Below are positions 32,057 to 55,157 of a stretch of 64,000 bases of DNA, one piece after another. The position numbers and the translations under genes were made by a program. Source of the DNA: Tetrapyrgos nigripes (Eukaryota > Basidiomycota > Agaricomycetes > Agaricales > Campanellaceae); assembly GCA_013368315.1 (NCBI GenBank), contig JAACJM010000243.1, forward strand, positions 59,363 to 123,362, read 5' to 3'. Under the pieces are notes generated by a model. It was not told where the DNA came from, searched no databases, and was given only the letters and a program-made list of their open reading frames with translations. The number at the start of each line of letters is the position of its first letter. Within the stretch, counting starts at the first letter, position 1.

Positions 32057-32528
32057 ATGGCACCTCATGGCTCTCGCCTTTTCCAGTTATATCCCACTCA
32101 AACTGCAGCCGCTGGCTCTGACATACCAGTCTGTCTTTCTGCTCCTTAAACTGGCTCGATGTTAGTGACATTCATCTCATTAGACTGCAGCTTCTTAGAG
32201 GTCAGCGCTGCCGGTGTTGTCGTCTGTGAGTGGGCACATGGTGCATCATCAACTCTTCTGTTACTCCATCTACTCACTGTCTTTTCTCCTGTAGACCTGT
32301 ACTACACCTTTGCCTCCCAATGATGCCTTTGTTTTTAATAATGATAACAATACTGTCATGCAAAATGTTAATGAAATTAGAACCTCTTTGCCTGTTCCCA
32401 ATGAGACCGCTCCCTCTGTCATGTCTCACACCAATTTTCCATGCACTGTGCAAGCTCAAGCACATTATTGTCCCTCTGACTTCATCCTCCTCAACAATTC
32501 TCACAAGTGTCAGATCGTTGCCAAGTTG
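32057..32528 (+). pseudogene. 5' part of a gene split by the giant palindromic element
   Basis: A possible start ATG at 32057 opens MAPHGSRLFQLYPTQTAAAG. After one or more introns (acceptor CTGTAG at about 32294) a frame runs TTPLPPNDAFVFNNDNN... to SDFILLNNSHKCQIVAKL, where the element begins at 32529. The frame resumes at 47481 beyond the element, with the 3-bp TTG target duplication being the Leu codon. The function is unknown and no domain is recognised. It may be a host gene or an ORF of another transposon. Exon structure upstream of 32300 is uncertain. Confidence 0.5.
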
Positions 32529-33812
32529 CACTGGGTGCAAACACTTGTAAATCCTCTGCTTTACTGAGGTTTTACAAGAGTATTACACCAAGCCAATCAA
32601 TATGTAAGACTCCTTGTCATACATTAGTATTACAAGAGACAGAAAAAATTAGAACAACCTTGTATGACCATTGTAAGTCATAAAGAAATACCATGGACTT
32701 TCAGTGTGACTTGCTGTGACTGTATACCCTTGGTGGATATACTGTGGAATTACACAGGAATTTCAGGGTGACTTTTTGTCACAATATGTCATGTAGTAAG
32801 ACACATAGGAAATACTGGAGTATTTCAGTGTGACAGATAATCACAGTATGACAAACAGTAAGGCAAGAGAGATTTACAAAGGACTTACAAGGAAGCAAAA
32901 TCTGCAGGAAATTTACAAAGTGACAATCAAGTCACAGTAATACACTTGTAAGACTAGCTGTATTATGAAGGAATTACAAGAAAGATTTGCTACAAACACT
33001 GGTAAATCCTCAGCCTTACTGGAGTATTACAAGAGTATTATGGGGAACCAATCAATATGTAAGTTGGCTTGACTTACAAGTGTATTACAAAATAGACAAA
33101 AAATGAGGACTATTCTGAAAGACCATTGTAAGCTGCAAGGACATACCATGGACTTTCAGTGTGAGGCTTTGTCACAGTATAGCACTGAAGAGCATACAGT
33201 GGAATTACAAGGTGACTTTTTTGTCACAGTGTGTCTTCTTGTAAAACAGAACTGAAATACCAGGGTATTTCAGTGTGAGATAATGTCACAGTAAGACAAT
33301 TTGTAAACCAAGTAAAATTTACAGAGGACTTACCAGAAGGTGGAACTTGAAAGTCTTGGGTAAGACTGCTCATATTTACACTGAATTTACGGAGGGACAG
33401 CTGTGTCACAGTAATACCCTAGAAAGACTTGTGACTTTACAAGGGAATTACAAGATGCAGGTTTTAAAAGTCTATCTCGTAAGTCTCTGGAAAAAACCTG
33501 CATGCTAAATGGAGAATATACAGTGTGACAGACTGGTCACAGTAAGACACTTGTAAGTCACAAGACATTACAATGACTTTACTGAAAAGTGACTATTTTG
33601 TAAGTCATCATGTATATCCAATGGACTTACAAGAGACTTGTTGGATGGATTTGCAGTGCATGTCAATTAAGTAATACAGAAGGGCTTACTGAAAATTTAC
33701 AGGATGTAATACAATGAATTCATTCAACCAGGTCAATTAAATGTTACTAAATATAAATAGACAGCTCAGGCTGGACTGTGTCTGCCTTGTCATCTTCGTC
33801 TGCTCAGTCTGT
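32529..33812 (+). repeat. Left terminal inverted repeat of the giant element, ~1.28 kb
   Basis: Nearly identical to the reverse complement of 46196-47480, with only scattered single-base differences in the parts I compared. It is built from degenerate direct repeats: the ~360 bp starting at 32529 recurs from about 32996 (shared AAACACTKGTAAATCCTC, GAGTATTAC, CCAATCAATATGTAAG, ACCATGGACTTTCAGTGTGA, GTATTTCAGTGTGA). About nine short hairpin motifs of the form GTGAC-(5-8 nt)-GTCACAGTA occur at about 32707, 32768, 32827, 32921, 33158, 33213, 33274, 33394 and 33519. The first and last 30 bp are not low complexity. Confidence 0.88.
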
Positions 33813-34684
33813 TAGGTCTACCTTGTCTGCCTTGTCTGCCCTGTCTGCCCCATCTGTCTCATCTGCCTCGTCTGCCCTGTCTGCCTTGGGACTGTGTCTC
33901 CCCATCTGCCTTGTCTGCCTTGTCTGCCTTGTCTGCCTTGTCTGCCTCGTCTGCCTTGTCTGCCTTGTCTGCCTCGTCTGCCTCGTCTGCCTCGTCTGCC
34001 TCGTCTGCCTTGGGACTGTGTCTCCCCATCTGCCTTGTCTGCCTTGTCTGCCTTGTCTGCCTTGTCTGCCTTGTCTGCCTTGTCTGCCTCGTCTGCCTCG
34101 TCTGCCTCGTCTGCCTCGTCTGCCTCGTCTGCCTTGGGACTGTGTCTCCCCATCTGCCTTGTCTGCCTTGTCTGCCTTGTCTGCCTTGTCTGCCTCGTCT
34201 GCCTCGTCTGCCTTGTCTGCCTTGTCTGCCTTGTCTGCCCCGTCTGCTCTGTCTGCCCCGTCTGCCCCGTCTGCCCCGTCTGCCCCGTCTGCCTCGTCTG
34301 CCTCGTCTGCCTTGTCTGCCTTGTCTGCCCCGTCTGCCCCGTCTGCCTCGTCTGCCCCGTCTGCCCCGTCTGCCTTGTCTGCCTTGTCTGCCCCGTCTGC
34401 CTCGTCTGCCCCGTCTGCTCCGTCTGCCCCATCTGCCTCGTCTGCCTCGTCTGCCTCGTCTGCCTCGTCTGCCTCGTCTGCCTCGTCTGCCTCGTCTGCC
34501 TCGTCTGCCTTGTCTGCCTCGTCTGCCTCGTCTGCCTCGTCTGCTCCGTCTGCCTCGTCTGCCCCGTCTGCTCCGTCTGCCTTGTCTGCTCTGTCTGCCT
34601 TGTCTGGCTTGTCTGCCCTTGTCTGGCTTGTCTGGCTTGTCTGCCCCGTCTGCCTTGTCTGCCTTGTCTGCTCCGTCTGCCTCG
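33813..34684 (-). repeat. 9-bp minisatellite, reversed-polarity segment (GTCTGC on plus)
   Basis: About 97 units of 9 bp, reading (CTC/CTT/CCC)GTCTGC-type on the plus strand, that is GCAGAC plus a triplet on the minus strand. Three copies of a ~123-bp higher-order unit carry TTGGGACTGTGTCTCCCCAT at about 33888, 34010 and 34134. Polarity is as expected for the left arm of the palindrome. Confidence 0.85.
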
Positions 34685-37542
34685 GATAGACAAGGCAGAC
34701 AAGGCAGACAAGGCAGACGGAGCAGACAAAGCAGATGGAGCAGATGAGGCAGACGGGGCAGACGAGGCAGACGGAGCAGATGAGGCAGACGAGGCAGACA
34801 GAGCAGACGAGGCAGACAGAGCAGACAGAGCAGACGGGGCAGACGAGGCAGACGGAGCAGATGAGGCAGACGAGGCAGACGGAGCAGACGAGGCAGACGG
34901 AGCAGACGAGGCAGACGGAGCAGACGAGGCAGACGGAGCAGACAGAGCAGACGGGGCAGACGAGGCAGACGGAGCAGATGAGGCAGACGAGGAGCAGACA
35001 AGGCAGACAAGGCAGACGAAGCAGACGAGGCAGACGAGGCAGACGAAGCAGACGAGGCAGACGAGGCAGACGAAGCAGACGAGGCAGACGAGGCAGACGA
35101 GGCAGACGGAGCAGACAAGGCAAACGAGGCAGACGGAGCAGACGAGGCAGACGAGGCAGACGGAGCAGACGAGGCAGACGGAGCAGACGAGGCAGACGAG
35201 GCAGACGGAGCAGACGAGGCAGACGAGGCAGACGGAGCAGACGAGGCAGACGAGGCAGACGGAGCAGACGAGGCAGACGAGGCAGACGAGCAGACGAGGC
35301 AGACGAGGCAGACGGAGCAGACGAGGCAGACGGAGCAGACGAGGCAGACGAGCGACGAGCAGACGAGGCAGACGGAGCAGACGAGGCAGACGAGGCAGAC
35401 GGAGCAGACGAGGCAGACGAGGCAGACGGAGCAGACAAGGCAGACAAGGCAGACAAGGCAGACAAGGCAGACGGAGCAGACGAGGCAGACAAGGCAGACG
35501 GAGCAGACAAAGCAGATGAGGCAGACAAGGCAGACGGAGCAGACGAGGCAGACAAGGCAGACGAGGCAGACGGAGCAGACAGAGCAGACAGAGCAGACAA
35601 GGCAGACAAGGCAGATGGAGCAGACGGAGCAGACGAGGCAGACGAGGCAGACGAGGCAGACGGAGCAGACAGAGCAGACGGAGCAGACAGAGCAGACAAG
35701 GCAGACAAGGCAGACAGAGCAGACGGAGCAGACAAGGCAGACGAGGCAGACGGAGCAGACAAGGCAGACGAGGCAGACGAGGCAGACGAGGCAGACGGAG
35801 CAGACGAGGCAGACGAGGCAGACGGAGCAGACGAGGCAGACGAGGCAGACGAGGCAGACGAGGCAGACGAGGCAGACGAGGCAGACGAGGCAGACGAGGC
35901 AGACGAGGCAGACGAGGCAGACGAGGCAGACGGAGCAGACGGAGCAGACGGGGCAGACGAGGCAGACGGGGCAGACAAGGCAGACAAGGCAGACGGGGCA
36001 GACGGGGCAGACGAGGCAGACGGGGCAGACGGGGCAGACAAGGCAGCCAAGGCAGACGAGGCAGACGAGGCAGACGGGGCAGACGGGGCAGACGGGGCAG
36101 ACGGGGCAGACAGAGCAGACGGGGCAGACAAGGCAGACAAGGCAGACAAGGCAGACAGGGCAGACAAGGCAGACGAGGCAGATGGGGCAGACCAGGCAGA
36201 CGGGGCAGATGAGGCAGACAACGCAGACGGGGCAGACAACGCAGACGAGGCAGACGGCGCAGATGGAGCAGACAGGGCAGACGAAGCAGACGAGGCAGAC
36301 GGAGCAGACGGGGCAGACGAGGCAGACGGGGCAGACGAGGCAGACGAGGCAGACGGAGCAGACGAGGCAGACAGGGCAGATGAGGCAGACGAGGCAGACG
36401 GGGCAGACGGGGCAGACGGGACAGACGGGGCAGACAGAGCAGACGGGGCAGACAAGGCAGACAAAGCAGATGAGGCAGATGGAGCAGACGGGGCAGACGA
36501 GGCAGACGGAGCAGACGGGGCAGACGAGGCAGACGGAGCAGACGGGGCAGACGAGGCAGATGGAGCAGACGGGGCAGACGAGGCAGACGGAGCAGACGGG
36601 GCAGACGAGCCAGACGGAGCAGACGAGGCACACAAGGCAGACGGAGCAGACAAGGCAGAGAGCAGACGAGCCAGACGAGCCAGACGGAGCAGACAAGGCA
36701 GACAAGGCAGACGGAGCAGACAAGGCAGACGGAGCAGACAAGGCAGACGGAGCAGACAGAGCAGACAGAGCAGACAAGGCAGACAAGGCAGATGGAGCAG
36801 ACGGAGCAGACGAGGCAGACGAGGCAGACAGAGCAGACAGAGCAGACGGAGCAGACAGAGCAGACAAGGCAGACAAGGCAGACGGAGTAGACAAGGAAGA
36901 CAAGGCAGACGGAGCAGATGAGGCAGACGAGGCAGACGGAGCAGACGAGGCAGACGAGGCAGACGGAGCAGACAGAGCAGACGAGGCAGACGGAGCAGAC
37001 AGAGCAGACGAGGCAGACAGAGCAGACGAGGCAGACGAGGCAGACAGAGCAGATGAGGCAGACGGGGCAGACGAGGCAGACGGGGCAGACGAGGCAGACG
37101 GGGCAGACGAGGCAGACGGGGCAGACGGGACAGACGAGGCAGACGGGGCAGACGAGGCAGACGAGGCAGACGAGGCAGACGGGGCAGACGGGGCAGACGA
37201 GGCAGACGAGGCAGACGGGGCAGACGAGGCAGACGAGGCAGACGGGGCAGACGAGGCAGACGAGGCAGACGAGGCAGACGAGGCAGACGGAGCAGACGAG
37301 GCAGACAAGGCAGACAAGGCAGACAAGGCAGACAAGGCAGACAAGGCAGACAAGGCAGACAAGGCAGACAAGGCAGACGACGCAGACGACGCAGACGGAG
37401 CAGACAACGCAGACAACGCAGACGGAGCAGACAACGCAGACAACGCAGACAACGCAGACAACGCAGACAACACAGACAACACAGACAACACAGACAACGC
37501 AGACAACGCAGACAACGCAGACCACGCAGACCACGCAGACCA
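34685..37542 (+). repeat. 9-bp minisatellite, GCAGAC polarity, left block
   Basis: Polarity switches at CTCGGATAGACAAGGCAGAC (34681-34700). About 315 units of GCAGAC + triplet follow, the triplet being mainly GAG, AAG, GGG, GGA, AGA, AGG or AAC. It ends in a run of GCAGACAAC / GCAGACCAC units near 37400-37542. Higher-order blocks here match the right array in the same orientation, for example 36100-36340 against about 43495-43740. Occasional 7-, 8- and 10-bp units break the frame. Confidence 0.85.
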
Positions 37543-40430
37543 CCAGTAGTTGTAACTGCCATGCATAGTATACAGGCAGTACTCACCCAACACAATGCGT
37601 AGTCAACAGTCCTTTCTCTGTGTATACTTTGGGTGAGCATATGATGCATTGTATGGCTATTTTCATACTATGCATTGTGTGCACAATATTCTACTATACC
37701 ACGCATGGTATACCTTAAGTAAATTTGGCAGGTTTTTCCCACAGCTGGTAATTTGATGTGGCGGTAGGCAGGGCCTTAGGGGCCAGGAGGGCTGGTTTTT
37801 CTCACGCCTCAAAATTTGATAGGAGGTGCAGGCGGTCAGTAGGGGCCAAAATCTGTAAATGGAATAGGGGTAGTAGCTGTGGCTGGCTCCGAAAATGCAA
37901 AATAAATTCCTGGAGCCGGCAATGAAAAGTGATGTAAGTATATAAGAGGGTGTATTTTGGGTCGCTAAATCCAAATATCCAATCAAATTTGCAATAACTG
38001 CAGTGGGTATAGAGATATGGCCAAAATACTGTCCAAAATACAGCAAAATAGCAGGATGGGTACTGGTCATTGCATCCAATCAGCTCTGATCATTATGCAA
38101 ATTGGTAGGATACTGCTTTTGGATTCTATAAACTTGGGAATAACATTTATTTTATTATATAATCAATGTCTAGTGAGATATCCTCAATTTACTCTCAAAA
38201 AAGTGAAAAATTTGGGATGGCCATGCACACTGCATGTTATAGCATCTAATATAATTATGGATATGCTTACAAGGATATTTTGTGTCCCTGACTCAGAATA
38301 TCTACTTGGATAAGCTCTATATTCTGTGGTTCTGGTGATATGGAATACTTACCCCTAAATATAGGTACCTGTGGCATCCACAAATATGCAACTTATAAAT
38401 TTGTTTGAGAGGCTGGATAAATGTTCATTAATACCCTTAATCATAATATACAGTCATGTTTTTGATATCTTCAAAATACAAGACTCTATTTTCAATTCAT
38501 TCCCCAAAAATTGCCACAAAAGTGAAAAAGAGGAATGGCCATGCACAGGGCATGGTGTGGCATCCAATATGATCATGGATATGCCTACTAAGATAAATTT
38601 GGTTGTGGAATCCTAATATCCACTTGGATTGGCTCTATAGGCCATGGGTACTCTGCTATTCAAGACTTACCCCCAAACGTCGGTACCTGTGGCACCTGCA
38701 AATATGTACTTTATAAAATAGGTTGAGTGGGTTTAAAAGTGTTGATTGATGTAACAAACAGTAATATGAAGTCATATCACCTATATCCCTAAGTTCTAAG
38801 ACTCTATTCTCAATTTATTCCCCAGACAGCAAAGATAGCCTTAATTTTCACCTTCATTGACACATATACCTATCTTTTGGCTTTGAGACTGGCATTCTGA
38901 CTACCCTCCCATCATCCTAAGCCATAATTCTTGTGTTACTGGCAGTTTGGAAGTTCTCACTGAAAGACATGTTCAGATATAGCCTTAAGTGCTATAAGTA
39001 TCATTATCTGCAACTCAGTTTGACTTTAACCTGGTGCATGTACCTAGAACATCTGCTAGATATTTTGGATGGCTGATCATCTTTTGAGTGGTACTAAAAG
39101 ATGAAATACATAGTATGAGTGCCTCCAGTAACCTCTGGAATGAGATATGCCCATGTATATGGTTCCAAAAGGTACTATTTTCGCTTTTTGAGTAATAAAT
39201 TGGGAATAGAGTCTTGGATCTTGGGGATATGGAACATATGACCTCATATTCTTGTTTGGGGCTTTTATAAACAGTTATCCACCTATCTCCACAGTTTTTT
39301 AAGATACATATTTACAGGTGCCACAGGTACCCATGCTTGGGAGTAAGTCTTCAATAGCAGAGTAGCCACAGCTTATAGAGCCAATCTAAGTGGATATTTG
39401 GATTTAAGGACCCGGACTACTTCAATAGACATATACATAGCTGTATTGGATGCCATACCATGCCCTCTCCATGGCCATCTCACTTTTTTCGCTTTTGTGG
39501 CAATTTTTGGGAAATAAATTGAAAATAGAGTCTTGTATCTTCAAGATATGAAGAATATGACTTTGTATTCTGATTGAAAGTATTAATGGACATTTATCCA
39601 CCCTCTCAAACAAATTTATAAGTTGCATATTTGTGGGTGCCACAGGTACCTATATTTAGGAGTAAGTATTCCATATCACCAGAACCACAGAATATAGAGC
39701 TTATCCAAGGGAATATTCTGATTCAGGGACACAGAATACCCTAGTAAGCATATCCATAACTATATTAGATGCTATAACATGTAGTGTCCATGGCCATCCC
39801 AAATTTTCACTTTTTTGAGAGTAAATTGAGGATATCTCACTAAACATTGATTATATAATGAAATAAATGTTATTCCCAAGTTTATAGAATCCGAAAGCAG
39901 TATCCTACCAATTTGCATAATGATCAGAGCTGATTGGATGCAATGGCCAGTACCCATCCTGCTATTTGCTGTATTTTGGACAGTATTTTGGCCATATCTC
40001 TATAGGCACTGCAGGTATTGCGAATCTGATTAGATATTTGAATTCAGTGACCCAAAATACATCCTCTTATATACTTATATCACTTTTCATTGCCGGCTCC
40101 AGGAATTTATTTTGCATTTTCTGAGCCAGCCACAGCTACTACCCCTATTCCATTTGCAGATTCAGGGCCCTATCGACGGCCTGCACCTCCCATCAAATTT
40201 TGAGGGGTGAGAAAAACCCGCCCTACTGCCCCCTAAGGGGCACAGTGGCTTACTATGCGTGATATGCGAAAATAAAATGGGATATACTATGCATGGTATG
40301 GGGTGGAACAGTGATTCACTATGCATAGTATCATACCATAATATAGGTACAGATAAGCCTCTACAAACTATGCATTGTGCCCAGCAGAGTACTATCAGTA
40401 TACTATGTGTAGCAGTTACAGCTACAGCTG
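37543..40430. repeat. Nested inverted repeat (2.9 kb) between the minisatellite blocks
   Basis: The arms are about 37545-38828 and 39200-40428, with a loop of ~370 bp. Matching ends: TGTAACTGCCATGCATAGTA (37552) against the inverse of 40400-40420. Matching interior: GGAATAGGGGTAGTAGCTGT (37860) against the inverse of 40133-40152. Within each arm a ~315-bp segment is tandemly duplicated (38202-38521 and 38522-38828), sharing TGGCCATGCACA, GGTACCTGTGGCA and AGACTCTATTYTCAATT. The arms are visibly more diverged (several per cent) than the outer terminal repeats. No protein-coding frame is supported. Confidence 0.82.
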
Positions 40431-43400
40431 GGCAGATGGGGCAGACGAGGCAGACGGGGCAGATGAGCCAGACGGGGCAGACGAGGCAGACGGAGCAGAC
40501 AAGGCAGACGGAGCAGACGAGGCAGACGGGGCAGACGAGGCAGACGGAGCAGATGAGGCAGACGGAGCAGATGAGGCAGACGAGGCAGACGGAGCAGACG
40601 AGGCAGACGAGGCAGATGGAGCAGACAGAGCAGACGAGGCAGACGAGGCAGATGGAGCAGACGAGGCAGATGGAGCAGACGAGGCAGACGAGGCAGACGG
40701 GGCAGACGAGGCAGACGAGGCAGACGGAGCAGACGGGGCAGACAAGGCAGACAAGGCAGACAAGGCAGACAAGGCAGACAGGGCAGACGAGGCAGACGAG
40801 GCAGATGGGGCAGACGAGGCAGACGGGGCAGACGAGGCAGACAACGCAGACGGGGCAGACGGAGCAGACGAGGCAGACAACGCAGATGGAGCAGACGAGG
40901 CAGACAGGGCAGACGAGGCAGATGAGGCAGACGGGGCAGACGGGGCAGACGGGGCAGACGGGGCAGACGGGGCAGACAGAGCAGACGGGGCAGACAAGGC
41001 AGACAAGGCAGACAAGGCAGACAGGGCAGACGAGGCAGACGAGGCAGATGGGGCAGACGGGGCAGATGGGGCAGACGAGGCAGACGGGGCAGACGAGGCA
41101 GACAACGCAGACAGGGCAGACGGAGCAGACGACGCAGACGACGCAGACGGGGCAGACGGGGCAGACGAGGCAGATGGGGCAAATGAGGCAGACGAGGCAG
41201 ACGAGGCAGACGGGGCAGACGAGGCAGACGAGGCAGACGGGGCAGACGACGCAGACGAGGCAGACGGCGCAGACGGAGCAGACAGGGCAGACGAAGCAGA
41301 CAAGGCAGACGGAGCAGACGAGACAGACGGAGCAGACGGAGCAGACGGGGCAGACAAGGCAGACGGGGCAGGCGGGGCAGACCGGGCAGACGAGGCAGAC
41401 GAGGCAGACAGGACGGACGAGGCAGACGAGGCAGACGGGGCAGACGAGGCAGACGGGGCAGACGAGGCAGACGGGGCAGACGAGGCAGACAATGCAGACG
41501 GGGCAGACAGAGCAGACGACGCAGACGACGCAGACGGGGCAGACGGGGCAGACGAGGCAGACGGGGCAGATGAGGCAGAGGAGGCAGACGAGGCAGACGG
41601 GGCAGACGACGCAGACGAGGCAGGCGGTGCAGACAGAGCAGACAGGGCAGACGAAGCAGACGAGGCAGACGGAGCAGACGAGGCAGACGAGGCAGACGAG
41701 GCAGACGGGGCAGACGGAGCAGACGAGGCAGACAAGGCAGACGGGGCAGACGGGGCAGACAAGGCAGACGGGGCAGGCAGGGCAGACCGGGCAGACGAGG
41801 CAGACGAGGCAGACGGGGCAGACGGGGCAGACGGGGCAGACAGCGCAGACGAGGCAGACGGGGCAGACGGGGCAGACGAGGCAGACGGGGCAGACGGGGC
41901 AGACGAGGCAGACGGGGCAGACGGGGCAGACGAGGCAGACGGGGCAGACGGGGCAGACGAGGCAGACAGGGCAGACGGGGCAGACGAGGCAGACGAAGCA
42001 GACAAGGCAGACAAGGCAGACAAGGCAGACGGGGCAGACAGGGCAGACGAGGCAGACCGAGCCAGACGGGGTAGAGGGGGCAGACAAGGCAGACAAGGCA
42101 GACGGAGCAGACGGGGCAGACAAGGCAGACGGAGCAGATGGGGCAGACGACGCAGGCGAGGCAGACGGGGCAGACGAAGCAGACGAGGCAGATGAGGCAG
42201 ATGGGGCAAACGGGGCAGACGGGGCAGACAAGGCAGACAGAGCAGACCAGGCAGACCAGGCAGACGGGGCAGACAGGGCAGACGAGGCAGACAGAGCAGA
42301 CCAGGCAGACGGGGCAGACGGGGCAGACGAGGCAGACGGGGCAGACGGGGCAGACAGCGCAGACGAGGCAGACGGGGCAGACGGGGCAGACGAGGCAGAC
42401 AGGGCAGACGGGGCAGACAAGGCAGACAAGGCAGACAAGGCAGACGAGGCAGACGGGGCAGACGGGGCAGACGGGGCAGACAAGGCAGACAAGGCAGACA
42501 AGGCAGACGAGGCAGACGGGGCAGACAGGGCAGACAAGGCAGACCGAGCCAGACGGGGTAGACGGGGCAGACAAGGCAGACAAGGCAGACGGAGCAGACG
42601 GGGCAGACAAGGCAGACGGAGCAGATGGGGCAGACGACGCAGGCGAGGCAGACGGGGCAGACGAAGCAGACGAGGCAGATGAGGCAGATGGGGCAAACGG
42701 GGCAGATGGGGCAGACAAGGCAGACAGAGCAGACCAGGCAGACGAGGCAGACGGGGCAGACAGGGCAGACCAGGCAGACAGAGCAGACGAGGCAGACGGG
42801 GCAGACGGGGCAGACAAGGCAGACAAGGCAGACGGGGCAGACGGGGCAGACCGAGCAGACGGAGCAGACAAGGCAGACAAGGCAGACAAGGCAGACGAGG
42901 CAGACAAGGCAGACGAGGCAGACGGGGCAGACGGGGCAGACGGGGCAGACGAGGCAGACGAAGCAGACGGGGCAGACGAGGCAGACGGAGCAGACAGGGC
43001 AGACAAGGTAGACGAGGCAGACAGGGCAGACGAGGCAGACAACGCAGACGGGGCAGACGGAGCAGACGAGGCAGACGGGGCAGACGGAGCAGACGAGGCA
43101 GACGAGGCAGACGGGGCAGACGGGGCAGACGAGGCAGACGGGGCAGATGAGGCAGACGACGCAGACGAGGCAGACGGCGCAGACGGAGCAGGCAGGGCAG
43201 ACGAAGCAGACGAGGCAGACGGAGCAGACGAGGCAGACGAGGCAGACGAGGCAGACAAGGCAGACGAGGCAGACGAGGCAGACAAGGCAGACAAGGCAGA
43301 CGAGGCAGACGAGGCAGACGGGGCAGACGGAGCAGACGGGGCAGACGAGGCAGACGGGGCAGACGGGGCAGACAAGGCAGACGGGGCAGACGGGGCAGAC

Positions 43401-46195
43401 GAGGCAGACGGGGCAGACGGGGCAGACGAGGCAGACAAGGCAGACAAGGCAGACAAGGCAGACGGGGCAGACGGGGCAGACGGGGCAGACGGGACAGACG
43501 GGGCAGACAGAGCAGACGGGGCAGACAAGGCAGACAAGGCAGACAAGGCAGACAGGGCAGACGAGGCAGACGAGGCCGATGGGGCAGACGAGGCAGACGG
43601 GGCAGATGAGGCAGACAACGCAGACGGGGCAGACAACGCAGACGAGGCAGACGGCGCAGATGGAGCAGACAGGGCAGACGAAGCAGACGAGGCAGACGGA
43701 GCAGATGGGGCAGACGAGGCAGACGGGGCAGACGAGGCAGATGGGGCAGACGGGGCAGATGAGGCAGACAACGCAGACGGGGCAGACAACGCAGACGAGG
43801 CAGACGGCGCAGACGGAGCAGACAGGGCAGACGAAGCAGACGAGGCAGACGGAGCAGACGGGGCAGATGAGGCAGACAGGGCAGACGAGGCAGACGAGGC
43901 AGACGGAGCAGACGAGGCAGACAGGGCAGACGAGGCAGACGAGGCAGACAGGGCAGACGAGGCAGACGAGGCAGACGGGGCAGACGGGGCAGACGGGGCA
44001 GACGGGGCAGACAGAGCAGACGGGGCAGACAAGGCAGACAAGGCAGACAAGGCAGACAGGGCAGACAAGGCAGACAAGGCAGATGGGGCAGACAAGGCAG
44101 ACGGGGCAGACGAGGCAGACAACGCAGACGGGGCAGACGGAGCAGACGAGGCAGACAACGCAGACGGGGCAGACGGGGCAGACGAGGCAGACGGGGCAGA
44201 TGAGGCAGACGAGGCAGACGGGGCAGACGACGCAGACGAGGCAGACGGCGCAGACGGAGCAGACAGGGCAGACGAAGCAGACGAGGCAGACGGAGCAGAC
44301 GAGGCAGACGAGGCAGACGGAGCAGACGAGGCAGACGAGGCAGACGGGGCAGACGGAGCAGACGGGGCAGACAAGGCAGACGGGGCAGACGGGGCAGACA
44401 AGGCAGACGGGGCAGGCGGGGCAGACCGGGCAGACGAGGCAGACGAGGCAGACAGGGCGGACGAGGCAGACGAGGCAGACGGGGCAGACGAGGCACACGG
44501 GGCAGACGAGGCAGACAATGCAGACGGGGCAGACGGAGCAGACGAGGCAGACGACGCAGACGGGGCAGACGGGGCAGATGAGGCAGACGGGGCAGATGAG
44601 GCAGACGAGGCAGACGAGGCAGACGGCGCAGACGGAGCAGACAGGGCAGACGAGGCAGACGAGGCAGACGGAGCAGACGAGGCAGACGAGGCAGACGGAG
44701 CAGACGAGGCAGACGAGGCAGACGGAGCAGACGAGGCAGACGAGGCAGACGGAGCAGACGAGGCAGACGAGGCAGACGGAGCAGACGAGGCAGACGAGGC
44801 AGACGGAGCAGACGAGGCAGACGAGGCAGACGGAGCAGACGAGGCAGACGAGGCAGACCGAGCAGACGAGGCAGACGAGCAGACGAGGCAGACGAGGCAG
44901 ACCGAGCAGACCGGGCAGACCGGGCAGACCGAGCAGACGAGGCAGACGAGGCAGACCGGGCAGACGGGGCAGACGGGGCAGACAGCGCAGACGAGGCAGA
45001 CGAGGCAGACGGGGCAGACGGGGCAGACGGGGCAGACAGCGCAGACGAGGCAGACGAGGCAGACGGGGCAGACGGGGCAGACGGGGCAGACAGCGCAGAC
45101 GAGGCAGACGGGGCAGACGAGGCAGACGGGGCAGACGGGGCAGACGACGGCAGACGAGACGCAGACGAGGCAGACGAGGCAGACGGGGGCAGACGAGGCA
45201 GACGAGGCAGACGGGGCAGACGAGGCAGACGAGGCAGACGGGGCAGACGAGGCAGACGAGGCAGACGGGGCAGACGAGGCAGACGAGGCAGACGAGGCAG
45301 ACGAGGCAGACGAGGCAGACGAGGCAGACGAGGCAGACGAGGCAGACGAGGCAGACGAGGCAGACGAGGCGAGGGCAGACGAGGCAGACGAGGCAGACGA
45401 GGCAGAGAGGCAGACGAGGCAGACGAGGCAGACGAGGCAGACGAGGCAGACGAGGCAGACGAAGCAGACGGGGCAGACGAGGCAGACGAGGCAGACGGGG
45501 CAGACGAGGCAGACGAGGCAGACGGAGCAGACAGGGCAGACGAAGCAGACAGGGCAGACGAAGCAGACGAGGCAGACAGGGCAGACGAGGCAGACGAAGC
45601 AGACGAGGCAGACGAGGCAGACGAGGCAGACAGGGCAGACGAGGCAGGCGAAGCAGACGAGGCAGATGGGGCAGACGGAGCAGGCGGGGCAGAACGGGGC
45701 AGACGGGGCAGACGGGGCAGACGGGGCAGACGAGGCAGACGAGGCAGACGAAGCAGACGAGGCAGACGAGGCAGACGAAGCAGACGAGGCAGACCGGGCA
45801 GACCGGGCAGACAAGGCAGACAAGGCAGACGTAACAGACGACAAGGCAGACGGGGCAGATGAGGCAGACGAGGCAGACGAAGCAGACGGGGCAGACGAGG
45901 CAGACGAGGCAGACGGAGCAGACAGGGCAGACAAGGCAGACAAGGCAGACAAGGCAGACGGAGCAGACAAGGCAGACGGAGCAGACAAGGCAGACAAGGC
46001 AGACGGGCCAGACAAGGCAGACAAGGCAGACAAGGCAGACAAGGCAGACAGAGCAGACAAGGCAGACAAGGCAGACGGGGCAGACAAGGCAGACAAGGCA
46101 GACAAGGCAGACGGGGCAGACAAGGCAGACAAGGCAGACAAGGCAGACGGGGCAGACAAGGCAGACAAGGCAGACAAGGCAGACAAGGCAGACGT
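40431..46195 (+). repeat. 9-bp minisatellite, GCAGAC polarity, right block
   Basis: About 640 units of GCAGAC + triplet in one orientation. Higher-order structure is clear. A block containing GACCGAGCCAGACGGGGTAG recurs at about 42055 and 42543 (~489-bp period). A block with GACAACGCAGACGGGGCAGA recurs at about 43614 and 43769 (~155 bp). Runs of GCAGACGGGG give four or more GGGG tracts spaced by CAGAC (for example 40931-40975 and 43976-44005). Because the unit is 9 bp, all frames stay open for kilobases. The resulting Ala-Asp-X, Gln-Thr-X or Leu-Pro-X polypeptides are not credible genes. Confidence 0.88.
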
Positions 46196-47480
46196 AACAG
46201 ACTGAGCAGACGAAGATGACAAGGCAGACACAGTCCAGCCTGAGCTGTCTATTTATATTTAGTGACATTCAATTGACCTGGTTGAATGAATTCATTGTAT
46301 TACATCCTGTAAATTTTCAGTAAGCCCTTCTGTATTACTTAATTGACATGCACTGCAAATCCATCCAACAAGTCTCTTGTAAGTCCATTGGATATACATG
46401 ATGACTTACAAAATAGTCACTTTTCAGTAAAGTCATTGTAATGTCTTGTGACTTACAAGTGTCTTACTGTGACCAGTCTGTCACACTGTATATTCTCCAT
46501 TTAGCATGCAGGTTTTTTCCAGAGACTTACGAGATAGACTTTTAAAACCTGCATCTTGTAATTCCCTTGTAAAACCACAAGTCTTTCTAGGGTATTACTG
46601 TGACACAGCTGTCCCTCCGTAAATTCTGTGTAAATATGAGCAGTCTTACCCAAGACTTTCAAGTTCTACCTTCTGGTAAGTCCTCTGTAAATTTTCCTTG
46701 GTTTACAAATTGTCTTACTGTTACATTATCTCACACTGAAATACCCTGGTATTTCAGTTCTGTTTTACAAGAAGACATACTGTGACAAAAAAGTCACCTT
46801 GTAATTCCACTGTATGCTCTTCAATGCTATACTGTGACAAAGCCTCACACTGAAAGTCCATGGTATGTCCTTGCAGCTTACAATGGTCTTTCAGAATAGT
46901 CCTCATTTTTTGTCTATTTTGTAATACACTTGTAAGTCAAGCCAACTTACATATTGATTGGTTCCCCATAATACTCTTGTAATACTCCAGTAAGGCTGAG
47001 GATTTACCAGTGTTTGTAGCAAATCTTTCTTGTAATTCCTTCATAATACAGCTAGTCTTACAAGTGTATTACTGTGACTTGATTGTCACTTTGTAAATTT
47101 CCTGCAGATTTTGCTTCCTTGTAAGTCCTTTGTAAATCTCTCTTGCCTTACTGTTTGTCATACTGTGATTATCTGTCACACTGAAATACTCCAGTATTTC
47201 TTATGTGTCTTACTACATGACATATTGTGACAAAAAGTCACTCTGAAATTCCTGTGTAATTCCACAGTATATCCACCAAGGGTATACAGTGACAGCAAGT
47301 CACACTGAAAGTCCATCGTATTTCTTTGTGACTTACAATGGTCATACAAGGTTGTTCTAATTTTTTCTGTCTCTTGTAATACTAATGTATGACAAGGAGT
47401 CTTACATATTGATTGGCTTGGTGTAATACTCTTGTAAAACCTCAGTAAAGCAGAGGATTTACAAGTGTTTGCACCCAGTG
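46196..47480 (-). repeat. Right terminal inverted repeat of the giant element
   Basis: Inverse of 32529-33812 including the junction sequence with the minisatellite (AAGATGACAAGGCAGACACA). In this copy the hairpin nearest the outer end reads GTGACAGCAAGTCAC, a perfect GTGAC/GTCAC pair. The left copy has a one-base change that destroys the pairing. Confidence 0.88.
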
Positions 47481-47906
47481 TTGGTTCCATTATTGTCAAA
47501 TGCTACTCTTCATGTAGGGATCACTGTCCAGCAAGGGAAGAGGAAAAAGACCCATATTGAACTTCAAAATGATTTTCATCGCCTTGTATGTTTGCCTACA
47601 TGTCTCATCCGACGTGAACATGCTGCTGCTATTGACCAGACTAGTATGCCTACTTTACCTGAACTGGATTTTTTTGTTTCTGCCAAAGCTCTGAAACTGA
47701 GAACACAAGCCGTGCAACAGTGCGGCGCACGCAAACACACTAATACTGATGATCAAAATGAAATGTCTTCAATGCAGCAAAAGACAACCACATCTGCCTC
47801 GTCAAGTACTACCCCTTCCTCTTTGCCTCCTCGGGACCTGATCATCACTAAACATGAATCCTGGCTCAACATCCTAGTGCTAGAATCTCTGTCACTATGT
47901 CCATAA
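47481..47906 (+). pseudogene. 3' part of the gene split by the giant element
   Basis: The frame resumes at the duplicated TTG and reads VPLLSNATLHVGITVQQGKR, then HIELQNDFHRLVCLPTCLIR, SMPTLPELDFFVSAKALKL and a Ser/Thr-rich stretch. It ends at a TAA at 47904-47906 about 25 bp before the gypsy 5' LTR. No known domain is recognised. It pairs with 32057-32528. Confidence 0.5.
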
Positions 47907-47931
47907 TGACAATGGGTATATATAGAGGCAC

Positions 47932-48448
47932 TGTCATGAATCGTCTCCTGCCTATTCATTTTCCTTTCTATTCTTTTCCCTTTACTACCTATTTCCACTC
48001 TAACCCCATAAACATCAACCATTTCTCATCATCGTCTGGAGTTACCATCTCTCTAGATCTATGACTCACATTCCTATCTCCTCCGATTCCTATCTCCATG
48101 GACATTCTCACTGTCAATCACTCCGTGTGATCCAGTACCTTCATCTATCCATATTCGACTTATTATTCTCTCGCCCTTGACATTTCCACATGATACCATC
48201 TATTACTACTTACTCTTTCCCATCTGTTCACATTTTACTTATATACCTGTGATCTTTGTAAACTATTCCTTAGTTCGTTCACTTCGTCTCCGCTCCGTAC
48301 TTTTACTACGCAGTGTAGAGCCTAGTCAGCTTACTTTCTCTCTATCTCTCTATCTCTTTATCCCTTCTGATCAATCTATCCTCTTGTGAATCGGCTTTCT
48401 CGTACTGTGTGACTTGGGTGGTTATCGAGTGTACCGACAACTTTGACA
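47932..48448 (+). repeat. Gypsy 5' LTR
   Basis: Starts TGTCATGAATCGTCTCC and ends CAACTTTGACA. TTATATA at 48238-48244 is a plausible TATA box, placing the transcript start near 48270. Confidence 0.92.
48272..48281 (+). promoter_or_regulatory. Putative self-primer (transcript 5' end), AGTTCGTTCA
   Basis: AGTTCGTTCA lies ~30 bp after the TATA box, at the expected 5' end of the genomic RNA. It is the exact reverse complement of TGAACGAACT at 48451-48460, just after the LTR. The same decamer is kept in the 3' LTR. Confidence 0.5.
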
Positions 48449-48450
48449 CT

Positions 48451-48460
48451 TGAACGAACT
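48451..48460 (+). promoter_or_regulatory. Primer binding site, complementary to the RNA's own 5' end
   Basis: TGAACGAACT begins 2 nt after the 5' LTR. No TGG-starting tRNA-complementary site is visible here, which supports Tf1-type self-priming over tRNA priming. Confidence 0.5.
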
Positions 48461-48485
48461 CCCATACACCCACCTCACTATTTGA

Positions 48486-48917
48486 GTCCTTTCCCTTATA
48501 TCCTATTCGTCTCTATTCTCAACTACTTTCATCCTGTCTACCCCACGTTCCCGAATTCGTATCGAACCTCCTGAAACCCCTCGTGACTATGAGCGAATTC
48601 CATTTCCCCTTCCCCGTTACCTCCTGTACTCCGAATACGCGGTCTCTCACGGAAGGAAACTACGAACGGATCCTTGGAGTCTCGACCGACACTTCGTTTG
48701 CACAAGACGTTGGGTGTGGAAACTTAGCTCAGGTGACGTAGTCCTCTCAACGTTCTCGTACATAACGGTAAAAGAAGACTTCGATACAGGAGAAACTGTG
48801 GTTCAGATTCAAGGACCTCTATTCCTCAAAGAACACGTCGATTACTCTCCACTTGCACCTTCCCCCGAATACGGCCTAGCATCTTCCTATATCCTAGGGC
48901 CCAACTACCTTTCATAA
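48486..48917 (+). CDS. Gypsy leader ORF upstream of gag, no early ATG
   Basis: Open from 48486 (after an in-frame TGA) to TAA at 48915-48917. The first ATG is only at 48714. It contains PRYLLYSEYAVSHGRKLRTD, RHFVCTRRWVWKLSSGDVV and ITVKEDFDTGETVVQIQGPL. It ends 10 nt before the gag ATG, in a different frame. It may be translated from a non-AUG codon or be a decayed N-terminal extension. Function unknown. Confidence 0.4.
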   Translation, partial: VLSLISYSSLFSTTFILSTPRSRIRIEPPETPRDYERIPFPLPRYLLYSEYAVSHGRKLRTDPWSLDRHFVCTRRWVWKLSSGDVVLSTFSYITVKEDFDTGETVVQIQGPLFLKEHVDYSPLAPSPEYGLASSYILGPNYLS

Positions 48918-48927
48918 AAATCAGTGT

Positions 48928-50427
48928 ATGACTGAGCGACGGTCCGCATCTGCAGATCCGAAACTCCGTTGTGCTAACCGACCACACGTATTCCACCCCG
49001 CATCGAACCAAGACGCTTGCTATATCCCTGAAAACGGCGACGACCCTTGGGTTCCGTGTAAAGCTCAACCTTGCCTAAACAGATACAATACTCAGCGACT
49101 CACCGACGTAGAACTCCCGAATTGGCTACACGTTATAACCCAGCTCCAAGAACTTGCGATTCAGAAAGCACATCGAAAACCTAGAACCAGATCAGGTCAA
49201 GAGACTTCTATGCCCACCAACCAACCTTCCGAACCCAACCCAGTACCAGAAACACCTTCCAATAACCCACCAGAACCAAACGACCCCACCTCCCCACCTT
49301 CTTCGCCCATCATTCCATCTGCTGAAGGACCATCCGTAGCCCCTCGCCGCCCCCCTACACCTCTGTCTCCAGACCCTTCAGACCCGAACGACTCAGTCAT
49401 GGCTGACACACCTCCTATTGGGTCAAACGGAACCTCCGAACGAGGAAGAAAACCGGATCCCTTTAACAGAGAACGTAGCGAGGCAAAACGATGGTTGGCC
49501 CAGTTTAATAACTATCTACGCATGAATGAAGGAAGGTACCCAACCGAAGAAAGCCGGGTTTCATTGTTTCTGTCATTCTTCACAGGAGAAAAAGGAGGAG
49601 ATTGGGCAACGCAGAGATTGACGGAACGAGACGACGATGAAGAAGACGAGGAGTTGAAGAGTGCACCAGATCAACGAAGATGGATAACCTTAAAAGAGAT
49701 ACGTGATCGATTCAAAAGGGACTTCAGACCTTTAGCCTCAGAAGATGTGGCCAGAACAAAGATCAAGTTTGCCAGAATGAAGGGGATGGATATCAGCGGC
49801 TATAACAGCATTTTTGACACGTATGGAGAAGAGTCCGAATTCGGAGAAGCAGCATTGTTGGAGTTCTATCAGGACGGACTACCACCCAAACTTCGAGAAG
49901 CAGTTGGAAGGACGTACCCGAAATGGAAAAACTTCGACCAATACCAGGAGAGAGCTGTGGAGCTTCACTTAGAGTGGTTGAAGGAACGAGAGAGACAAGG
50001 ACGCTGGAAGACTACTTCAACGTCGAAGAATAGTCCAGGTCCGTCTCAAGGAAGAACGGTGGCTAGCGTAAATGCGCTCATGGGATCAGGTGCTAACTCG
50101 TCTTTCAATTTACCGCCGAAACTGACACCTGATGAAAGGGACCGACTCCGAAAAGCAGGAGCATGCTTCGCATGTAGACAAACTGGACACATGAGTAACG
50201 AGTGTCCAACATTTCCGAGAACGTCGTCCCAGAACACTTCCCGAACCTTCCCTCCTCGTACCATTCGAACGGCTGAAACCGCATCCCCTCCACCGGTAAC
50301 GGTGGCACAGGCATCCTCTTCTCGAAACACGATCAAGGAAATCTCTGATATGGTAAACAGGGTTAAAGGATTAGAAGGAGAGGAAAAGGAAGCAAGCAAC
50401 CGTCTATTTGAAGGATATTATGTCTAA
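48928..50427 (+). CDS. gag: Gypsy Gag polyprotein
   Basis: A 499-aa frame from ATG 48928 to TAA 50425-50427. It has an N-terminal cysteine-containing region and a Pro/Ser-rich linker. The capsid-like region runs from RSEAKRWLAQFNNYLRMNEG through WITLKEIRDRFKRDFRPLAS to LPPKLREAVGRTYPKW. A CCHC zinc knuckle, CFACRQTGHMSNEC, lies near residue 412. The role is nucleocapsid formation and RNA packaging, by family knowledge. The frame is intact. It is followed in the same frame by the protease region, separated only by one TAA. Confidence 0.88.
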   Translation: MTERRSASADPKLRCANRPHVFHPASNQDACYIPENGDDPWVPCKAQPCLNRYNTQRLTDVELPNWLHVITQLQELAIQKAHRKPRTRSGQETSMPTNQPSEPNPVPETPSNNPPEPNDPTSPPSSPIIPSAEGPSVAPRRPPTPLSPDPSDPNDSVMADTPPIGSNGTSERGRKPDPFNRERSEAKRWLAQFNNYLRMNEGRYPTEESRVSLFLSFFTGEKGGDWATQRLTERDDDEEDEELKSAPDQRRWITLKEIRDRFKRDFRPLASEDVARTKIKFARMKGMDISGYNSIFDTYGEESEFGEAALLEFYQDGLPPKLREAVGRTYPKWKNFDQYQERAVELHLEWLKERERQGRWKTTSTSKNSPGPSQGRTVASVNALMGSGANSSFNLPPKLTPDERDRLRKAGACFACRQTGHMSNECPTFPRTSSQNTSRTFPPRTIRTAETASPPPVTVAQASSSRNTIKEISDMVNRVKGLEGEEKEASNRLFEGYYV

Positions 50428-53400
50428 ATTGGATTTTTAAATCACTCCTCTGTTACGTCGTCAGCAGGAGTAAAACAGTACACCGGACAGTTAAAGAACA
50501 ATCGATATAGTGTGTTATACCCCTCTTGTGAGCGATCCTTTCCTTCAGAAATAAGAATGTCAGCAATCACTCGCAATAAACAGATACCATCAATCACACT
50601 CAAAACTGAACTAATCGGCAAAATTACTGGCAGAAAAATCGACACAAACGCCCTAATAGACAGCGGTGCAGAAGGCATAATCATTAACAGTCAATTCGCA
50701 CAAAGAAATCAACTTACCCTTCTTCCTATCAAAAACCCATTCCCAGTACGAAACGTTGACGGCTCTGAAAACACTATGGGGTGGGTACGAGAATACACTA
50801 TCCAAAATCTTCGTATCTATTCTCGAGACAACAAGGCGTACCATGAAGAACAGGCCGAATTCTATGTAACGGACATCGGGGATCACGATGTAATCCTCGG
50901 TACCGACTGGTTGGAAGAACACAATCCAGATATAGACTGGTCTGACTCACGGGTAGACATGACTAGATGCCCAGAAACGTGTATCACGGCAAAACCTCCC
51001 GTTCTCCACTTAAAAACTAAAACCTCAAAACCCATAGTCATTGATCCAAGAACCCATCACAAGGAGTACCAAGTCAGATGGATAGAACCAGTTGGACGAT
51101 TCAAACCAACAGCTCAACCGAAAATTGCAGGACGACGTCGTCGAATTCCTATTCGATCTTTCCACCGAAATTCAGAAGAAACGGCAATCTTTACCGAAGA
51201 TGACTACAGGAGAGATACGATCCCAGAACGATGGGAACAGGACGTAATGGAAGAATTATTAGGGAAAGAGGAGAGATTCGATGAAGAAGCATCAGGGACA
51301 CCGGATCTGAACATCCGTGCGGGTTTTACGAAAGCACAAGAACTCGCAGAGGCAGCTCAGAACGTTCAGGTCGATGTACCTCTTAAAGATAAGATTCCTC
51401 CGCAGTATCATCAGTTCCTACGAGTCTTTGACAAACAAACCTCAGAAAGATTACCGAAACGTGGCGAATGGGATCACGCTATCGAGTTAAAATCGACTTT
51501 GAACCACGCCCTTGCAAAACATATCCGTTGTCCCCAAACGAACAAAAGGAACTCGACGAATTCATCAAGGAAAACTTGGAGAAAGGGTACATAAGACTGT
51601 CGAAGTCTCCTATGGCAAGTCCCTTCTTCTTTGTAAAAAAGAAAGACGGAAAACTACGACCAGTACAGGATTACCATGCCCTCAATAAAGGGACCGTCAA
51701 GAACGAATACCCTTTACCGCTTATATCGGAACTCGTAGACAAGCTCAAAGGGGCACGAATATTTTCCAAAATCAACCTTAGATGGGGGTATAACAACGTG
51801 CGTATCAAGAAGGGGGATGAATGGAAGGCGGCGTTCAAAACCAACCGCGGTCTCTTTGAACCAACGGTGATGTTTTTCGGTCTTATGAACTCTCCAGCCA
51901 CATTCCAAGCAATGATGAACACTCTATTCAAGGACCTGATCGACTCTGGAAAAGTCGTAATCTATATGGACGATATTCTCATATTCACGGAATCATTAGA
52001 AGAACATCGACACATGGTAAAACAAGTATTGGCACGACTCCATGATAACGACTTATACGCTAAACCGGAAAAATGCACCTTCGAAACCGACTCAGTAGAA
52101 TTCCTCGGCCTCATCGTGTCACATAACACATTGGCGATGGATCCAGTCAAGGTCGAAGGAGTAACTAAATGGCCAGTCCCGTGGAACGTCAAAGACGTAC
52201 AATCGTTCCTCGGCTTCGGAAACTTCTATCGTCGTTTCATACGAGATTTCTCAAAAATCGCACGACCGCTGTTCAATCTCACGAAAAAGGAACATCCATG
52301 GGAATGGTCCGAGGAAGCTCAAACGGGCCTTCCAGGCACTCAAAGATACGTTCACACTTCACCAGTTCTTCTCATGCCTGATCATTCTAAACCGTACCGA
52401 GTAGAAGTTGACGCGTCGGATTACGCCACAGGAGGTATCCTGCAACAACAAGGATCGGATGGCAAATGGCATCCAGTAGCCTACTTGTCAAAAGCGCTGT
52501 CCGAAACCGAACGGAATTACGACATCCATGACAAAGAACTGCTAGCAATCATACGTGGACTTGAAGCTTGGCGGCACTACCTGGAAGGAGGACCACACAC
52601 CATCGAAATCTTGACTGATCACGACAACCTCAGGTACTTCACCTCGGCTCAAAAGCTCAGTCGACGGCAAGCGAGAATGGCCTTGTTCCTGACCAGATTC
52701 GACTTTACGCTCACCCATAAACCTGGAAATCTGAATCGAAGTGACCCACTTTCTCGAAGATCGGACCATAAAGAGGGGGTCGAAAACGACAACAAGGACA
52801 GGGTCTTGCTCGACCCTAGATTCTTCAGGATTCGAGCGACACGACCAGGAACGGTAACTGCTATAGGAGATACAGAGTTGAAAAGACGGATTAAGGAGTG
52901 TCCGGATAAGGATGCCGAAGTCGTGAGTGCGTTACAAACTATTTTTAACAACGGACCACGCGCTTTGGCAAAGAATTTACAGGAATGGAACTACGAAGAC
53001 GGAATTATCTTGTTCCGAGGGAAGATCTACGTCCCAAATGATCAACAACTCAGACTGGACATCGTTAAAATGCATCACGACAGCCTTACTGCCGGACACC
53101 CGGGACGATTCAAAACATATGAACTTGTCAGTAGAGAATACTGGTGGCCTGGTATGTCAGTATTCGTTCGCAGCTACGTTGAAGGATGCGCTACCTGCCA
53201 GTTAACCAAGGCAAACAACCACCCTGCGCATGTACCCTTAATTCCAAACGAAATACCGGAACGACCCTTCGGTACCATTACGACTGACTTCATCACGGAC
53301 CTGCCAGAATGTGACGGCTTCAATGCAATTCACGTCATGGTCGACCGTTCAACAAAAACAGTTGTCATCTCCCCATGCAGAAAAGATATTGATAGCGACG

Positions 53401-54544
53401 GAACAATTGACCTATTGTTCGACAACACTTGGCGACGGTATGGCTTATGGGATAAAATGATATCTGACCGCGGACCTCAATTCGCAAGCCAAGTAATGAA
53501 AGGCATTTACGCTAAGTTAGGTATCACTTCGGCACTTAGTACCGCTTACCATCCCAGACAGACGGAGAAACAGAAAGGTTCAATCAAGAACTGGAACAAT
53601 ACCTTCGAACCTTCTGTAACTATCGCCAAGACGATTGGGTCAAATACCTACCGTACGCTGAATTCTGTCATAATACCCGGGTTCACTCAGCAACTGGGAA
53701 ATCGCCGTTTGAATTACTCCATGGATTTCTGCCCCGACTATTCCCTTCCATCAACCCAACTTCACACGTACCAAAAGTCGAAGAACGCCTCCAGAACTTG
53801 GATACAATTCGAGAAGAACTGAAAGCAAGTCTGGCGACGGCAGCTGAATTAATGAAAGAGCAAAACAAGGACTACCGGAACGAAGGGGTGAAGTTTAAGG
53901 TTGGGGATAAAGTGCTGCTGGACGGGAAGAATCTGAAAACGACGAGACCGAAAGCTAAGTTGGCAAATCGTCGTCACGGACCATTCGAAATCACTGACGT
54001 TATCAGTGAAGTCAATTATCGACTCAAATTACCGAATGGCTGGCGCATTCATCCAGTGTTCCACGCCTCACTCCTATCACCGTACAAAGAGACCGAAGCC
54101 CACGGAGCGAACTACCCGGGAGAACCTGCTGAGCTACTACCCGAAGACAACGAATATGATGTGGAAGCAATTCTAGATTCAAAACCAACGAGAAACCAAC
54201 GGGGAGTACAATACCTTGTCAAGTGGTTGGATTATGCTGACTCGGAAAATTCATGGGAACCAGCGTCAGGATTGACGAAGGTGAAGGAGATGATCGAGAC
54301 CTTCCATCAACAACATCCAGATGCATATCGACCCAAAAACTTGATACGTCCGGGAACAACGGTGCGTTCACTAGGCGTCGCCATGGAAGACATATGGCGA
54401 AGTACCCGTGTACTTCAAGCGAAGACACAACTCCGAGGAGAAACACTGTTACGAACTGTGGGCATCCTATGCCCGCCTTCACACCCCACTCGGCAATCGA
54501 ACTCAGAATTCTGTCATCACTCATCAATCGCATTCCCTCGTTAA
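50428..54544 (+). pseudogene. pol: Gypsy Pol: protease, RT, RNase H, integrase, chromodomain (disrupted)
   Basis: Protease has ALIDSGAEG and VILGTDWL. RT has SPFFFVKKKDGKLRPVQDY and YMDDILIF, followed by RNase H (VEVDASDYATGGIL and DKELLAI). Integrase has the His/His...CATC zinc domain and DDE motifs TTDF, SDRGPQFAS. A GPFEI-type region and a chromodomain (EYDVEAILDSKP to LVKWLDYADSENSWEP) follow. Damage: a one-base deletion near 51489 between protease and RT; motif A reads KINLRWGY, with Asn in place of the catalytic Asp (codon 51775-51777). A compensated double frameshift lies at about 52324-52357, and a one-base deletion near 53553 within integrase. After the last the frame continues to 54544. 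Pol is in the same frame as gag across a single stop codon. Confidence 0.9.
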
Positions 54545-54716
54545 CGGCGTTTACTGTCAAAACCATCCCCGGGGGTGACTTGACCGTCCATTCAAAGTTT
54601 CCTCCATACAGACAAACAAGTATAAAAGACCCCTCGCAACAACGAAGAAGGACAGAACTCAACCACATCCTACCAGTTTCACCCTACTCCTCTCATACTA
54701 CATCTTTATCATCGCC

Positions 54717-55157
54717 ATGTCTACCACTTCTTCTACCAACACCAACATGAACGACGCGCTCCCAACCAACAGGGGACGTTGCACCTATGGAATCCGTTCT
54801 GGACGACGGTGCCGAATGGCGAAACAACACGCAGGACCTCACAACGGGTGTCAACGCTGCACATGGGGAGGAGAGGATGGACCAGGACGATGCAGATTGG
54901 GCAGGGGACATAAGGCCCGTTGTGTGGTACAATGGACGTCGCTACGTGTGGAACATAAAGGAAATCTAGGATGGGGAGACGCCAGCATATGGGGGGCAAA
55001 CAACGTTGTACCATGGAGCATGGACGACAACGGAGGGGGATGGGGAACAGCTACCAACACAACGGAATGGGGGAACTTAGACTGGAACGACCCTAGATGG
55101 GAGAATGGAGACGGCACTATAGATTGGGACAGATATTGGCCGAGCCAGGGGATGTAG
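54717..55157 (+). CDS. Gypsy accessory ORF with two tandem Cys/His modules
   Basis: A 146-aa intact frame between pol and the 3' LTR, with an ATG in GCCATGT context. The N-terminus is Ser/Thr/Asn-rich. Two tandem modules follow with the spacing C-x9-C-x5-H-x6-C (Cys22, Cys32, His38, Cys45) and C-x10-C-x5-H-x3-C (Cys48, Cys59, His65, Cys69). Both start RCT-(Y/W)-G or similar and share G-x-RCR. The C-terminus is rich in Trp, Gly, Asn and Asp (WGDASIWGANN, WGNLDWNDPRWENGDG). It is possibly a zinc-binding nucleic-acid-binding protein. I do not know this as a standard gypsy gene. It is undamaged although pol is broken. Confidence 0.6.
   Translation: MSTTSSTNTNMNDALPTNRGRCTYGIRSGRRCRMAKQHAGPHNGCQRCTWGGEDGPGRCRLGRGHKARCVVQWTSLRVEHKGNLGWGDASIWGANNVVPWSMDDNGGGWGTATNTTEWGNLDWNDPRWENGDGTIDWDRYWPSQGM

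Follow-up and report, generated by a model that had tools for sequence, protein, structure and literature searches.

A CACTA-like foldback transposon family with hundreds of ends and a hypervariable array, and a putative KDZ-type element nested in one of its copies in Tetrapyrgos nigripes

The window, the whole stretch of 64,000 nucleotides of Tetrapyrgos nigripes DNA that was analysed, contains an element of 15.0 kb (32529-47480) that starts with CACTG at 32529, ends with CAGTG at 47480, and has TTG directly outside both ends, as the first-pass annotation had reported. All coordinates are window positions unless a contig is named. The window copy is designated C238w, and C with any other number is a contig label from the genome of ~98 Mb. 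The parts of the element and their strands are as follows.

32526-32528, unstranded: left target-site duplication (TSD) TTG, directly outside the CACTG end
32529-33779, plus strand: left terminal inverted repeat (TIR) of the CACTA-like element, with the CACTG start, from self-comparison of the TIRs
33816-34684, plus strand: left array arm, 9-bp unit, T-rich strand GTCTGCCTC
34681-34691, unstranded: foldback flip CTCGGATAGAC, also present in C132, C46a, C46b, and C144
34688-37540, plus strand: right array arm, A-rich strand AGACGAGGC, the portion left of the nested element
37541-40430, unstranded: nested palindromic element with CA..TG ends, CACCAGTAGTTGTA and CAGCTGTAGCTGTA
37774-38838, plus strand: left arm of the nested palindrome, tandem units of ~317 bp
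39175-40238, minus strand: right arm of the nested palindrome, 87.4%
40431-46229, plus strand: right array arm resumed beyond the nested element, A-rich strand GGCAGACGA
46230-47480, minus strand: right TIR with the CAGTG end
47481-47483, unstranded: right TSD TTG

The two TIRs are 98.8% identical over 1251 bp (32529-33779 versus 46230-47480), close to the near-identical terminal repeats of ~1.28 kb described earlier, and with the adjoining first array bases added, 1334 of 1360 positions are identical. They are, as had also been noted, more alike than the arms of the nested palindrome (98.8% versus 87.4%). The left TIR itself contains two related direct units (32538-32891 and 32993-33336, 73.5%). 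The interior consists mostly of 9-bp arrays, in which long reading frames stay open because the 9-bp unit holds no stop. Among the frames of at least 120 amino acids in the open reading frame list, none within 32529-47480 resembled a transposase, in agreement with the earlier description of a 15-kb object without one. The 9-bp arrays and the central inverted repeat of that description are present, but its two minisatellite blocks are one foldback array cut at 37541-40430, and the inverted repeat, which had been counted as part of the same element, is a different transposon with ends of its own.

Several other mobile sequences surround the element. A Ty3/gypsy-type retrotransposon with reverse transcriptase, RNase H, and integrase domains lies ~450 bp to its right (47932-55760), with direct ends (47932-48448 versus 55243-55760) that are 92.5% identical. 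A Tc1/mariner-like element (21161-22793) has 213-bp inverted ends (94.8%) and a 375-amino-acid frame with a DDE_3 domain. Pieces of a Plavaka transposase (14514-15431) and of a KDZ sequence (880-1683) are on the minus strand. For an ABCF gene of the window, the named relatives come from basidiomycetes, the nearest from Marasmius tenuissimus (87%). The flanks of the 15-kb element, 32129-32528 and 47484-48083, join into a single open frame, so the element may interrupt a gene.

The 30-bp terminus of the outer element matched 467 places in 98 Mb with three or fewer mismatches (237 forward and 230 reverse), versus none in either orientation for a reversed-pattern control. Further copies, predicted from the window sequence, are therefore present elsewhere, and the outer element is real and multicopy, neither a chance pattern nor a one-off assembly artefact. 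We read 34 copies, namely, the window copy and 33 facing pairs of termini no more than 20 kb apart among the first 100 termini listed. These copies span 0.77 to 18.4 kb, and all 34 have CACTG..CAGTG ends, the terminus by which they were chosen. An exact 3-bp TSD flanks 31 of the 34 and also two longer pairs of which the edges alone were read (C96, TGT; C28, TTA), which gives 33 of 36 copies checked. In the three exceptions the flanks share no base (C31b) or one base each (C31a and C120).

Uninterrupted related sites were found for 3 of 12 joined flanks when the best 40 of 602 candidates were scored. The C6 repeat accounted for 38 of the 40 matches (91 to 96%), and C7 and C11a for one each; the other flanks searched included C173, C46a, C132, C44, C49, and C131. 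We read the matches for C6, C7, and C11a as related repeats. The expectation that empty sites exist was thus borne out for those three copies but not for the window copy, for which a genome search with 100 bp from each side returned its own flanks alone. Searches for empty sites of C17 and C33 likewise returned only their own flanks.

The smallest copy, C173 (6611-7378), is 768 bp long, with 258-bp TIRs, a TCA TSD, and no array. The array would therefore not be needed in cis for movement. This copy sits inserted in a KDZ-related gene. The ends and the 3-bp duplications support the view that the outer element is a real mobile family of CACTA-like character, of which the window copy is a non-autonomous member.

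The arrays of the family are arranged as inverted arms. In 32 of the 34 copies the array opens with a T-rich block and closes with an A-rich one, the exceptions being C173, which has no array, and C29. Between 1260-bp ends, 19 of 33 copies lack any non-array stretch of at least 150 bp, C173 being too short for this measure. The outer element is thus a foldback, with inverted arms and little or no unique middle. C96 departs from this layout in that, by probe sampling, all seven of its left array probes match the A strand and its right probes are T and then A. The 11-base flip of the window copy recurs in C132, C46a, and C46b and, turned round, in C144, so that 5 of 34 copies have the same junction. 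Fourteen of the 30 junctions compared were unmatched in other copies at two or fewer mismatches, and since two of these (C154 and C155) are not array flips, 12 unmatched array flips remain. We infer one founder for the five copies that share a flip and several separate origins for the others.

The arrays change far faster than the TIRs. For example, between the sister copies C46a and C132, 2 of 2468 aligned TIR positions are different, with further gaps of 52 and 1, whereas their arrays differ at 219 of 5186 positions, some of which may stem from shifted alignment, and have 62 gaps, of which 40 have a length divisible by 9. In C131 the junction between array and palindrome is present as three tandem 81-bp copies (element positions 2196, 2277, and 2358), an arrangement consistent with growth by local copying.

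Recent insertion or gene conversion had been proposed as the cause of the likeness of the window's terminal repeats. Insertion itself does not equalise two TIRs. Each window TIR has closer matches in other copies than at the opposite end, whose TIR ranks only 19th and 27th, so neither cause is supported for the window copy; its ends are alike to the degree seen across the whole family. TIRs of the same copy diverge by a median of 1.2%, and those of different copies by 1.9%. The two ends are each other's nearest TIRs in 10 of 32 copies, and homogenisation of ends may occur in some copies. Given the ranks of the window ends, TIR likeness was dropped as a gauge of insertion age.

The palindrome within the right array arm has separate ends, and copies of it elsewhere are flanked by exact 7-bp duplications, GTCTGCC in C194b and CTGCCCC in C131. 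In the window its flanks, CGCAGAC and GGCAGAT, are equal at 5 of 7 bases, and their phase fits a 7-bp duplication, a match that chance would give in one of nine copies, the array unit being 9 bp. A 7-bp duplication also fits a 78% relative in C27b if its end is set 3 bases in. In C48 the left end of the palindrome is gone, and the right end borders directly on the array. A genome search with the palindrome, in which the best 40 of 189 candidates were scored, gave at least 77 matched pieces, and the left end fell at the predicted base in all of 16 further loci, starting with CACCAG or CACCCG.

No KDZ transposase frame was seen in the open reading frame list for 37541-40430. The ends of the palindrome, compared with those of a unit carrying a KDZ gene in C31a, scored 29 on the left (best of 200 shuffles, 20) and 49 on the right (best of 200 shuffles, 27) with array bases left out, and crossed pairs of ends did not score above shuffles. 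In a stricter comparison that included array bases, the right end alone stood out. Because its two ends match the C31a KDZ element side by side, the inner element is considered a putative non-autonomous KDZ-type transposon, an assignment based on end similarity and 7-bp duplications in an element without coding sequence.

The position of the left end was used to determine how often this element lies in arrays. The sample comprised the 19 loci, among the best 40 of 189 candidates scored, that matched from the first query base; three had already been read (C238w, C194b, and C131), and the left end was predicted for the other 16. C48 and loci whose match lacked the left end were not counted. In the subfamily of the window palindrome (95 to 99%), 10 of the 16 copies with a testable left end are in array and 6 are outside, and in the 90% subfamily none of three is in array, for a total of 10 of 19. 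Masked array makes up 110,533 of 242,009 bases in the 34 outer copies, which extrapolates to ~0.77% of the genome when scaled to 467/2 copies. With this extrapolated share, the chance of at least 10 of 19 copies in array is ~6e-17 if the copies are assumed to be independent, which they are not fully. The ten array copies have 7 different junctions by strand and phase, and for 7 distinct array junctions versus 9 other sites the chance, on the same extrapolated share, is ~2e-11. The 9-bp array of the CACTA-type foldbacks may be a dispersed landing pad chosen by several KDZ branches, which would gain harmless sites and carriage; we regard this as having an even chance of being correct.

It is possible, but doubtful, that the enrichment reflects a safe haven, arising from the loss of harmful insertions elsewhere without any choice of target. 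The 6 of 16 subfamily copies and all 3 copies of the 90% subfamily outside arrays indicate that insertion is not strictly array-bound, as this explanation would have it. However, the window has pieces of four other transposon kinds, and harmless sites outside arrays would be expected to abound, yet 10 of 16 copies are in array, which by extrapolation is ~0.8% of the genome.

We consider it unlikely that palindromes are common in arrays because composites were copied whole rather than because of target preference. The outer family did multiply, and some composites could share an origin: C238w, C194b, and C188a agree in the strand and phase of the junction, as do C131 and C46:160642. Against this, one copied composite would not be expected to give 7 different junctions among ten array copies, some of which array turnover could have shifted, and the flip of C238w is common to C132, C46a, and C46b, all of which lack the palindrome.

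KDZ-bearing units lie in other outer copies. C155 (15.6 kb, TTA TSD) and C31a (18.4 kb) have CxC2 and KDZ domains between the outer TIRs and arrays, C243 has the same right side as C155, and C302 has array beside a near-equal KDZ gene, with no TIR in the stretch read. The C155/C243 unit has relatives at C82 and C333 (80 to 81% over the right 2.7 kb, with the left in pieces) whose borders, inspected by eye, lie in unrelated DNA and show the 7-bp duplications TGCATCC and TAGAAAG. The slice beside the C82 unit contained neither array nor TIR because the unit there stands in unrelated DNA; the slice read at C42 stopped at the contig end, after 104 bases. The flanks of the C31a unit are equal at 5 of 7 bases, as are those of the window palindrome. 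The C155 unit has no duplication and has opposite array strands on its two sides, and the C155 and C243 units join the array at different phases. The occurrence of relatives in unrelated DNA with 7-bp duplications marks the KDZ units as independent transposons, which in C155, C243, and C31a are nested in the arrays.

It is very improbable that all of this is one element, in which KDZ is the transposase encoded by the family itself and the palindrome is the shrunken inside of KDZ-bearing copies, as the interiors of C155, C31a, and C243, the array at C302, and the matching ends of palindrome and C31a unit might suggest, because the C82 and C333 units overturn KDZ as the outer family's transposase, the C155 and C243 units meet the array at different phases, and KDZ duplications, in the portions of PMC12730594 and PMC12810828 available to us, are 7 to 8 bp (4 to 8 bp in Cryptococcus) rather than 3 bp.

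The CMC/Plavaka partner suggested by the first-pass annotation may be right in its CMC half. The genome has 117 hits to PF02992, the EnSpm transposase domain, and with that number a few near termini could be chance. A TIR pair at C96, 23.9 kb apart with a TGT TSD and arrays on both sides, has PF02992 inside (78.2 bits). Another hit (45.7 bits) lies 2.8 kb from a terminus in C79, with a short array and an open frame in between, and a third is 7.9 kb inside a terminus in C34. The scores in C79 and C96 are far apart, and these hits may belong to different branches. C96 is the best candidate for an autonomous copy, and its gene could itself be nested. Fungal EnSpm elements have CAC..GTG ends and 3-bp duplications, according to the available portion of PMC12730594. 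EnSpm is probably the likeliest partner because PF02992 occurs near termini, evidence that is weak by count, and because of the 3-bp duplications and CAC..GTG ends. The Plavaka half was not supported: the ends given for Plavaka in the same portion of that paper are CATCA..TGATG or TGT..ACA, not CACTG..CAGTG, and there was no Plavaka hit inside the read pairs among the matches listed. The C28 pair (503445-531846), 28.4 kb apart, has the same ends and a TTA TSD, and no KDZ, Plavaka, or PF02992 hit was among the matches listed for its interior.

We consider it highly probable that the 15-kb object was formed when a palindromic non-autonomous KDZ-type element inserted in the right array arm of a non-autonomous CACTA/EnSpm-like foldback. 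The ends, 3-bp duplications, copy number, and foldback layout of the outer element were observed directly, as were the separate ends of the inner element and the 7-bp duplications around its copies elsewhere. The outer element would have been moved in trans by a CMC-type transposase. The foldback form could have arisen several times over by loss of the interior and joining of two array arms, and the arrays would lengthen and shorten by 9 bp at a time through errors in copying. The inner element would have been moved by a KDZ transposase that has arrays as its preferred targets.

These elements resemble, and differ from, several known systems, as those are described in the parts of the cited papers available to us. 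The outer element shares CAC..GTG ends and 3-bp duplications with CACTA/EnSpm (CMC) elements (PMC12730594), but it has CACTG rather than CACTA and a 1.25-kb TIR, and most read copies are filled by kilobases of 9-bp array, to a total of 15.0 kb in the window. Its long inverted tandem-repeat arms, non-coding and variable inside, are like those of the foldbacks Tetris of Drosophila virilis and Galileo, whereas Tetris has duplications of 8 to 10 bp and units of ~220 bp rather than 3 bp and 9 bp; most foldbacks seem to belong to Mutator (PMC4079207). The inner element and the C82 and C333 units have CA..TG ends and 7-bp duplications like the KDZ group Kyakuja (PMC12730594). Unlike Kyakuja, the inner element is gene-less and palindromic, with 10 of 16 copies of its subfamily in arrays, and the ends here are short, imperfect, and inverted, whereas Kyakuja-1/2_LB are given without TIRs in the available portion of that paper. 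Tandem repeats are also linked to CACTA derivatives in Chenopodium (PMC7320549), but here the tandem array stays within mobile copies. Neither minisatellite-bearing CACTA foldbacks nor array-targeted KDZ elements were found in the literature searched, which is no proof of their absence.

The combination of nearly equal TIRs and strongly different arrays provides a natural gauge of how minisatellites change, and foldbacks that descend from a single founder can be recognised by their shared flip junctions. If KDZ elements truly target the arrays, the system would offer a testable example in which one DNA transposon exploits a second, and it would open the target choice of KDZ transposases to experiment.
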